DNA of 64,000 nt from NCBI RefSeq assembly GCF_008710135.1, contig NZ_VYKK01000004.1:62001-126000 (forward strand), given 5' to 3'. Shown piece after piece: positions 1,495 through 38,258 of the stretch. Position 1 is the first letter of the stretch; each line of letters opens with the position of its first letter. Origin of the DNA: Paenibacillus spiritus. GTDB lineage: Bacteria > Bacillota > Bacilli > Paenibacillales > Paenibacillaceae. Under the pieces are notes generated by a model. The model searched no databases and had not been told where the DNA came from. It saw nothing but the letters and a program-made list of their open reading frames with translations. Position numbers and translations under genes: made by a program.

Positions 1495-3151
1495 TTAAAC
1501 TTCTCTTAAATCATCAATGAATAACTGCATAGTTTTAACTATTTTGAACTTTGGTTTATATTGCTTCCAATAGTTCATATTTAAAGTTCCAATTGCTTCA
1601 ACTTCGGCAAATACAGGAACAGTATTAAAATAGTCTTCATTCGTTTTGAATTTCATTAACTGAATACTGTCACAATCAATCTTAACTGTATTCAATTGTT
1701 TCCCCATGAGTTTTTTATCTGAGACGAATAATCCCTTGAGAAGAAACTTTCCAGGTTTAAAGTCTTTACCGGAAATCCGGTAGAACTCGTTGAGATAGAG
1801 AATCATCTTTTCATTGATCTCTGAAACATCAAATTCCAAGTCATAATAAAGGGAATCGTCAGGAATGAAGTCTGCCAATTTTTCATTTAGTTCCTGTATT
1901 AATAACTCCAGTTTAGTCTTACTTAACTGAACTCCGCCAGCCCCACTATGACCAGCCACAAAAGTAGTATTATCGCAACTTTCCAATAACTCTAACATTG
2001 AAAAGTCTTCTAAACCACGAAAACTACCCGCGTATGTATCTTCGCCATCTCCATAACCTAAAACAATCGCAGGACAATTATAAGCACTAACCAGGTCGGC
2101 AGCCGCCAATCCATTAATTCCTTTACCAAGTTCGGGATTAACAATGACTACAACCTTATCGCCTTCATTAGCCAAAGTTTTATGGTATTTAATTGCTTCA
2201 GACTGAATTTCTTTCCGCTTCTCATTTCCTGATACAAGTCGCTTTGACAATTCAAGTATCTCTTCGTCGCTTCCCTCACACAACATGAAGTCAATAGCTA
2301 ATTGAATATTGTCTGCTCTTGTTGCTGCTGTAACTGCCGGTGATACCCCGAACAAGAAATCTGTAGAACTAAGATTATTCACATCGAAGTTCATTAGCGT
2401 GAACAATTGTTTTAGCCCTCTATGATGCAGTCCCTTTAACGATTGCTTTGCAAAATATCTGTTTTCTAGTTCCATCATAGACATGACATCGGCCAATAGA
2501 GCAAGTCCGGGCAAATCGTCAAACTCGTTTGAGTAATATGTATTCATGCATTCATCAATCACTTGGCACACCTTATATGTCAACAGCCCACCACAAGCAT
2601 TTTTATTTGGATATTCATCTCCCTCTTGTTGAGGGTTAACTAAGATTGCATATGGATTATTAACTGTAACTGTATGATGATCTATGATTAAGCAGTCCAT
2701 TCCTCGTTCCGTTAATGTTTTCATGGACTCAATGTCATTTGAGGAACTGTCAACTGCGATGAAGAGTTTAGTCTGCGTTGGAATTTGGTCTAGCAAATTG
2801 TTAATGTTGTGACCTGTTGAACGTTCATTGCAGATATAATATACGTCATTAGTGAAATTTTTTAGATATTTATACATAATCACCAACGATGTTACTCCGT
2901 CAAAATCTGAACTAATCAGGATCTCCAGAGATTGTAATTGCCTCACGGTTACGAATTGCAAGAATGATTCGTTGTGCTAATGCGTCAATATTTTTGAGAA
3001 GATATGAGTTACAAATTACATTTGACAGTGGATTTAAAAACTGATCAATGTTTGTGATACCATTAAGTTTAGCTAGTTTTGTGTATGTATTATCATAATG
3101 GTCAAGGGGAATCTTTGGTGTTCGTTGCTTCCAATTCATTGTTTTTATCAC
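1495..3151 (-). CDS. RecJ-like single-strand DNA exonuclease (DHH family), interrupted; candidate translational bypass
   Basis: RecJ proteins degrade single-stranded DNA 5' to 3'; SPbeta carries one (YorK). The gene is in two frames. The first 79 codons end in SGDPD followed by TAG at 2914-2912. The remaining 469 codons, read from TTT at 2904, begin FDGVTSLVIMYKYL. Joined at the two GAT codons (2917-2915 and 2907-2905) they give SGDPDFDGVTS, the exact DHH motif I (GDxDxDG). Later motifs are intact: FIAVDSSSND, IIDHHTV (DHH), LALLADVM, and GHSGAGGVQ of the DHHA1 domain. The joined length of 548 residues fits RecJ. The start is unclear: GTG at 3151 or ATG at 3139, both with poorly spaced ribosome binding sites. 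It could be a programmed bypass or a 10-nt insertion mutant. Confidence 0.85.
2905..2919 (-). other. Candidate ribosome bypass site (GAT TAG TTCA GAT)
   Basis: The take-off codon GAT (2917-2915) is followed at once by the stop TAG, and a matched landing GAT sits at 2907-2905. The intervening bases can fold as CTGA-TTAGT-TCAG, a 4-bp hairpin with the TAG in its loop. Matched codons, a stop right after take-off and a small hairpin are the known features of the T4 gene 60 bypass. The gap is 10 nt, so the hop also changes frame and restores the RecJ motif. Confidence 0.5.
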
Positions 3152-3156
3152 AACCT

Positions 3157-3297
3157 TTATCGAATACTGATCTTACAATTCACCGGAATATCAATCTTAT
3201 CGTATGTATCAATGGCCTTAAGAAACTTAAATGTCTGAGCCTTGCTTTCTCTTCCTGTTGTCTTGTTGATGATTCGGATACTAACTTTACGATTCAT
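3157..3297 (-). CDS. Small hypothetical protein, 46 aa
   Basis: Starts MNRKVSIRIINKTTGR with GGAGAG nine bases upstream of the ATG, and ends CKISIR just ahead of the RecJ-like gene. The alternating beta-type pattern and basic character are visible, but no family is recognised. Its close spacing to both neighbours suggests cotranscription with the exonuclease gene. Confidence 0.7.
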   Translation of the reverse strand: MNRKVSIRIINKTTGRESKAQTFKFLKAIDTYDKIDIPVNCKISIR

Positions 3298-38099: not shown

Positions 38100-38173
38100 T
38101 ACTCCCTACAGGACTCGAACCTGTGACCGCAGAGATATAAGCTCTGAACTCTAACCGACTGAGTTAAGGGAGC
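38100..38173 (-). tRNA. tRNA-Ile, anticodon UAU (reads AUA)
   Basis: Folds as a cloverleaf: acceptor GCTCCCT/AGGGAGT with one GU pair; D arm ACTC/GAGT; anticodon stem CAGAG/CTCTG with loop CTTATAT, so anticodon TAT; T arm ACAGG-TTCGAGT-CCTGT. No CCA is encoded. UAU reads AUA, a codon common in this AT-rich window and rare in many hosts, so it probably boosts translation of phage genes. Confidence 0.92.
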
Positions 38174-38177
38174 GAAG

Positions 38178-38258
38178 TACGGATGATCGGACTCGAACCG
38201 ATACGCCTTGCGGCAGCGGATTTTAAATCCGCTATGTCTGCCATTCCATCACACCCGC
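38178..38258 (-). tRNA. tRNA-Leu, anticodon UAA
   Basis: Class II tRNA: acceptor GCGGGTG/CATCCGT, anticodon stem GCGGA/TCCGC with loop TTTAAAA (anticodon TAA), variable arm TGCCGCAAGGCG, T arm ATCGG-TTCGAGT-CCGAT. It reads UUA and UUG. It is four bases from tRNA-Ile and both are transcribed leftward from the promoter at 38312. Confidence 0.93.

Follow-up and report, generated by a model that had tools for sequence, protein, structure and literature searches.

Very few genes are known to be read by translational bypassing in nature; one of them is T4 gene 60, in which a 50-nt gap is accompanied by elaborate signals. The passages of a 2016 review that are drawn on here cover T4 gene 60, the mitochondrial byps and a Streptomyces phage candidate, describe the mitochondrial bypass as independent of the mRNA context and the take-off stem-loop as a stimulator in gene 60, and state that no occurrences of natural in-frame stop hopping were known (PMC5009743). 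In T4, the mobA gene adjoins gene 60, and the insert has been suggested to protect against cleavage (PMC5009743, PMC3014915, PMC2988022). Some phage enzymes are also described as being split by homing endonucleases and made as two proteins that reassemble (PMC2988022). A literature search for RecJ frameshifting in Paenibacillus phages found no paper, most subscription papers and preprints lying outside its reach.

Here we describe a RecJ-like gene on the minus strand of the window (the whole 64,000-nucleotide stretch of Paenibacillus spiritus DNA that was analysed, which is part of a 606-kb bacterial contig), in which the active-site motif is split by a 10-nt insert containing TAG. The upstream frame (3151..2912, minus strand) opens with GTG, the ATG at 3139 being the likelier start, and its product ends in ...AITISGDPD before TAG at 2914-2912. 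The +1 frame reads ...SDFDGVTSLV and is open to the stop at 1497-1495 (minus strand). Two GAT triplets (2917-2915 and 2907-2905) are spaced 10 nt apart with the TAG immediately 3' of the first one, and the minus-strand junction thus reads ...GDP-D (GAT 2917-2915)-TAG-TTCA-GAT (2907-2905)-F-DGVTS. When 2914-2905 are omitted, GDPDFDGVTS is obtained, and the joined protein has 75 + 469 = 544 aa. This split, and the restoration of motif I by a 10-nt omission, had been claimed in an earlier note on this DNA, and its coordinates and frames were confirmed on the minus strand. We propose, with a probability of roughly 0.8, that this phage RecJ-like exonuclease is expressed by programmed translational bypassing in the form of a short stop-hop. 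The window most likely represents a large Paenibacillus prophage, since the close IMG/VR relatives of the gene sit on viral contigs (of 101-218 kb, and one of 21 kb) and the relatives within the genus and family include Paenibacillus dendrobii, P. barcinonensis and other Paenibacillus. The features of the locus are given below, where gap genes are the eight among 25 distinct close genes (the window gene included) that carry an insert beginning with TAG at precisely this codon boundary.

3154..3158, minus strand: putative ribosome-binding site AAAGG (in ataaaggttgtgataaaaacaATG), suggested by the sequence.
2915..3139, minus strand: N-terminal coding part of the RecJ-like gene, 75 codons from ATG 3139-3137 to ...ISGDPD; this part is conserved in the 25 distinct close genes.
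2915..2917, minus strand: proposed take-off codon GAT (Asp); GAT in 8/8 gap genes.
2912..2914, minus strand: TAG stop directly after the take-off codon; TAG in 8/8 gap genes.
2908..2911, minus strand: linker TTCA; TTAG, TTAA, CTA or CCA in relatives.
2905..2907, minus strand: proposed landing codon GAT, the same as the take-off codon, which would not be decoded again; from the sequence and the relatives.
2905..2914, minus strand: the 10 nt predicted to be omitted from the protein, TAGTTCAGAT; gapless relatives are contiguous at the same codon boundary, and the gap is conserved beyond fourfold sites.
1495..2904, minus strand: C-terminal coding part, 469 codons plus TAA, resuming with FDGVTS and containing DHH, DHHA1 and RecJ OB domains; from the frames and Pfam.

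The 25 distinct close genes came from searches of 394 family genomes (100 genus genomes among them), viral contigs and GTDB contigs, and six more distant genes served as outgroups. Identical copies and the divergent L013/L027, L036, L037, L058-L061, L064, L069-L071, L222-L225 and L254-L256 were left out of the counts, and from the 188 phage records only two, Sundance and KKP_3916, were taken, both as outgroups. The first scan of the GTDB contigs gave no match to the gene; an alignment-based scan of these contigs gave seven loci, of which four were used (copies of genes already counted). A search at the order level (10 of 392 genomes) yielded three additional genes, which are more distant, have frames of 540-568 aa and were left out of the counts, and the comparison of the gene with phage and plasmid DNA produced no DNA-level match. 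A loose junction-pattern scan of the viral contigs returned at least 120 stretches, and a stricter pattern returned 12, namely six known gap genes and six unrelated stretches.

Besides the eight gap genes, the set comprises one gene with a +1 site and 16 contiguous genes. The earlier note had suggested checking whether the 10 nt are an insertion present in several genomes, and seven further distinct genes indeed carry a TAG-initial insert of 9-10 nt at this boundary. The insert is 10 nt long in five gap genes and 9 nt in three. The junction is GAT-TAGTTCAGAT-TTT in the window, GAT-TAGTTAGGAT-TAY in G017, L041 and G202, GAT-TAGTTAAGAT-TAT in L046, GAT-TAGCTAGAC-TAT in L049, and GAT-TAGCCAGGC-TAT in G093 and L042. 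The landing triplet is GAT in five gap genes, the synonymous GAC in one (L049) and a mismatched GGC in two (L009 and L042), the latter two being of the 9-nt type and related to each other. The reading put forward in the earlier note, a hop of 10 nt from one GAT across the stop to the matching GAT, is the one that fits all five 10-nt genes. Because related phages keep a similar insert at this place, the arrangement looks like a rare, deliberately kept discontinuous reading rather than a broken gene. Among the contiguous genes the motif is GDPD in six (L043, L044, L047, L053, L062 and L212) and DVD or DCD in the other 10. The remaining gene, L031/L067 (G222, Paenibacillus sp. Marseille-Q4541), has the junction GAT CCC TGA C TAC before L067:3001, where a CCC_TGA +1 site would rebuild SDPDYDG; here, recoding at the same catalytic motif seems to have arisen in a second form. 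In the more distant relatives L013 (G041) and L036 (G257), a frame break was observed at nearly the same position between the DHH and DHHA1 domains, around NKERK/NEERK..Q, which may reflect either chance decay or another recoding site.

The downstream part alone matched Pfam DHH (6.6e-15) and RecJ_OB (2.3e-6), both over the cut-off, and DHHA1 (8e-4) below its cut-off. Motif I of the contiguous relative L044 aligned without gaps to two RecJ chains of solved structure, 8y30 and 5f54, these being the alignments shown among four matched sequences, and by comparison via L044 the motif of the window gene (GDxDxDG) is complete only when the gap is bypassed. In Deinococcus radiodurans RecJ, Asp79, Asp81 and Asp83 of motif I are reported to hold two metals, and alanine changes at metal-binding residues to leave the enzyme almost completely inactive (PMC4846377). 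The alignment and these roles of the aspartates place the insert between the second and the third metal ligand. According to the proposed stop-hop, the ribosome would halt with TAG in the A site while peptidyl-tRNA-Asp sits on GAT, the tRNA would release, the mRNA would slide by 10 nt (9 nt in some relatives), and the tRNA would re-pair with GAT or GAC, or weakly with GGC, before decoding restarted at the next codon; the pairing of GGC with tRNA-Asp could occur through a middle G-U. This would join GDPD to (F/Y)DGVTS and restore the three metal-binding aspartates of motif I, and ribosomes terminating at TAG would produce only a 75-aa peptide lacking the catalytic domain. The joined product would carry the peptide ...ISGDPDFDGVTSLVIMYK. 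Both the hop itself and its efficiency are inferred.

Both halves of the gene are under purifying selection. The dN/dS values were 0.022-0.122 for the upstream part (23 of 28 gap-gene pairs) and 0.046-0.066 for the downstream part (the 6 of 28 pairs with unsaturated dS). In the six codons 3' of the gap, summed over the 28 pairs of the eight genes, we counted 64 synonymous differences per 131 sites and 7 non-synonymous ones per 373 sites, giving a pN/pS of 0.038. The 10-nt gaps are identical at 8-10 of 10 positions between genes that are only 33-46% identical at fourfold sites, the pairs being mutually related; this contrast is weaker with the fourfold sites of the N-part alone (28-80% identity), and its P values come from related pairs.

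The alternative that survives best, although unlikely, is a split gene, in which the 75-aa N-part and a C-part made by separate initiation would reassemble. It could draw on the TTG and GTG starts that precede the junction in the downstream frame of the window, and on a TTG or GTG 6 or 7 codons past the junction in seven of the eight gap genes. However, TAG or TAA stands right before the landing codon in the +1 frame of four of the five 10-nt genes (G017, L041, G202 and L046), which puts YDGVTS out of reach for a separate start there. In G202 (L028/L045), this stop just upstream is followed by a downstream frame with no ATG, GTG or TTG for 46 codons, and thus the first 46 codons cannot stem from a separate start, yet codons 1-45 are constrained against the gapless L043, L044, L047 and L062 (pN/pS 0.10-0.33), if less sharply so against some genes (up to 0.35, against the gap gene L041). 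The break would, moreover, separate the metal ligands of motif I.

For the 9-nt genes, the hop might be replaced by UAG readthrough, as a 9-nt gap preserves the frame and two of the three genes have a landing triplet that has drifted to GGC. We consider this very unlikely, since the three extra residues in motif I would displace its third aspartate, the GAC of L049 retains the Asp identity, and the 10-nt genes would be left unexplained.

A plain +1 frameshift at GAT_TAG is highly improbable as well. It is compatible with the window sequence taken alone, where no stop interrupts the +1 frame between GAT and FDG, and a +1 site occurs at this motif in the sister gene of G222. The relatives exclude it: in the four 10-nt genes with a closed +1 frame, unlike in the window, such a shift cannot join the two parts, and the 9-nt genes require no change of frame. 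The earlier note was also right that the shift would add residues to the catalytic motif, which in the window gene are the three residues SSD, its product reading ...GDPDSSDFDG....

Split prophage genes are common, but decay or a sequencing artefact is scarcely credible for eight distinct genes that come from isolates and metagenomes, are near saturation at synonymous sites in many pairs and have a low dN/dS on both sides, and the view that the gene is not decayed, which the earlier note had taken, is upheld.

The TAG codon does not look reassigned, because it is an ordinary stop of 11 of the 54 mechanical ORFs of at least 120 aa in the window. No suppressor tRNA was found in the window, and no tRNA at all in nine 20-kb pieces from G000, G017, G202 and G093; TAG reassignment or suppression is thus not supported by the ORF stops and the tRNA scan of the window and these pieces. 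The window carries at 38100-38258 (minus strand) a tRNA-Ile with anticodon UAU (reading AUA), which is unusual in bacteria, adjoining a tRNA-Leu(UAA). When the window was compared with pieces of four relatives, recJ was the sole split gene among 71 minus-strand frames with matches; plus-strand split-gene matches in the same comparison were taken as antisense shadows. A scan for stop-hop motifs picked up the recJ site in the window, and L230, the neighbouring piece, gave two matches.

The small hairpin (CTGA/TCAG) that was claimed to enclose the stop is present in the window sequence, but did not hold up as a signal: one of its four pairs forms in only one of the eight gap genes, and 92% of random gaps form a helix of 4 bp or more around the stop. 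A CTGG/YYAG stem shared by the gap genes was rejected likewise, as random gaps yield such matches. No stimulatory RNA structure stood out in seven of the eight gap genes, L009 being left out (folding z-scores -0.53 to 0.77), and no nascent-peptide signal was recognised by eye upstream of the junction.

The start codons of the two groups of genes differ. When starts were assigned by position, two codons before a conserved Trp, the 16 contiguous genes and the +1 gene had ATA (15 genes: L029, L030, L043, L044, L047, L048, L050, L051, L053, L054, L056, L062, L212, L012 and L031/L067) or ATC (L010 and L011), and the eight gap genes ATG (5) or TTG (3). The exceptions are G202, with an ATG three codons further up, and the contiguous L012, with a GTG three codons up, inside the Shine-Dalgarno sequence. 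The ATA and ATC starts are mostly preceded by a strong extended Shine-Dalgarno sequence resembling AAGGAGTGAT. In Staphylococcus aureus reporters, AUA and AUU starts with an extended Shine-Dalgarno sequence are described as giving about 10% of AUG expression in poor medium, and one AUA gene as reaching up to 30% in rich medium (PMC13009471). The start-codon contrast may represent only one or two evolutionary events. It suggests, but does not prove, that these phages exchange one means of keeping the RecJ-like nuclease scarce for another, the bypass being one that would keep it scarce. A possible, though tentative, extension is that a mobile mini-bypass linked to homing endonucleases is kept as an expression valve. 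The nuclease would be held low by a non-canonical AUA or AUC start behind a strong Shine-Dalgarno sequence in the gapless genes and by a 9-10 nt stop-hop with a normal AUG or UUG start in the gap genes, and one line would combine an ATA start with CCC_UGA frameshifting. With recoding placed inside the catalytic motif, the recoded lines would make no active enzyme without it.

The link with a homing endonuclease comes from G202, where a 303-aa LAGLIDADG endonuclease gene (P0001; Pfam LAGLIDADG_3, 2.4e-5) lies directly upstream of recJ and overlaps its start.

L045:1892-2803 (G202:C1:4537244-4538152), plus strand: LAGLIDADG homing endonuclease gene, assigned by Pfam.

Such a gene adjoins recJ in only one of the eight gap genes (G202/L045), and the link between endonuclease and gap is for this reason suggestive only. 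No relatives of the endonuclease beyond G202 were found at 1e-15 in the 394 family genomes, and a scan of viral contigs, sensitive to close relatives only, returned its own copy. Downstream of recJ, the ORF L047:5485-6060 has an HNH domain over the cut-off and L046:6672-7310 one below it, and L043:4677-5351, which lacks a Pfam match, resembles an endonuclease only on visual inspection. In these phages, recJ may commonly have mobile endonucleases nearby.

The G202 gene looks mosaic around the gap. In the C-part tree G202 lies among the contiguous L043, L044 and L047, and monophyly of the gap genes is rejected (p-AU 4.4e-5); in the N-part tree (73 columns) all gap genes group together with support of 92/79, which is not strong. 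Between G202 and L047, the DNA identity amounts to 76-100% in the measurable portions far upstream, to 73-81% across the N-part and to 78-100% past the gap, apart from one 75-column stretch at 69%. We therefore compared, site by site, positions at which the three gapless sisters agree on a base that is absent from the five other gap genes. G202 was sister-like at 6/6 sites from -167 to -138, gap-gene-like at 5/7 sites from -62 to +19 and sister-like at 19/19 sites from +28 to +282; further upstream, two of three sites were gap-like. From this pattern, no more than a short tract surrounding the gap looks transferred (few sites), and a transfer of the whole N-part with the gap into G202 was rejected. 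The gap TAGTTAGGAT, identical in G202, G017 and L041, points to the transfer of a short tract too. The gap may have originated as an insert linked to a homing endonuclease.

If the proposed stop-hop is true, a conserved hop of 9-10 nt in a bacterial virus, both in-frame and frame-changing, would constitute a minimal natural bypass and show how little suffices, namely a stop and a matching landing codon. It would also supply a set of gap, linker and landing variants that lends itself to comparison, and a candidate case in which bypassing serves regulation instead of just accommodating an insert; bypassing of this kind would, according to the 2016 review, broaden interest (PMC5009743). Automatic gene callers probably label such genes as broken. 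The 9-nt in-frame versions, the CCC_TGA +1 version, the homing endonuclease beside one copy and the start-codon difference are observations beyond the earlier note. Bypassing itself is known; new here would be that it is short, natural, conserved and found in both frame classes.

The window gene resembles T4 gene 60 with mobA in that it is a phage DNA-metabolism gene with UAG directly after the take-off codon and a gap missing from relatives, and the T4 gene likewise has a linked homing endonuclease, which in the recJ genes is seen in G202 only (PMC5009743, PMC3014915, PMC2988022). However, the T4 gap is 50 nt long and flanked by Gly GGA codons, whereas the recJ gap has 9-10 nt and Asp GAT; gene 60 has a take-off and a 5' stem-loop, neither of which is supported in the recJ genes; MobA is of the HNH type and the G202 endonuclease a LAGLIDADG protein; and the gene 60 protein and RecJ are unrelated. 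In addition, the recJ gap is kept in several phages, whereas the gene 60 process is, in the source as cited here, apparently unique to T4 (PMC3014915). The synthetic 'stop-hop' constructs in Escherichia coli share with recJ the matched codons around a stop and the short distance, but the recJ site is natural and conserved, requires a longer hop (9-10 nt) and lies within the active site of an enzyme. With the mitochondrial byp elements of Magnusiomyces capitatus it has in common short untranslated inserts in coding sequence and the occurrence of imperfect landing codons (PMC5009743); it differs from them in belonging to a bacterial system, in concerning one gene versus 81 byp sites and in having a stop in the A site. 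The candidate of Streptomyces phage Hau3 is also a phage gene proposed to be bypassed (PMC5009743), but that is a UUA-linked terminase gene, whereas here TAG and RecJ are involved. Finally, the CCC_UGA signal described for +1 frameshifting in the Listeria phages PSA, A118 and A500 (PMC5009743) is shared by the sister gene L031/L067, but is absent from the window gene, which would rely on the stop-hop instead.
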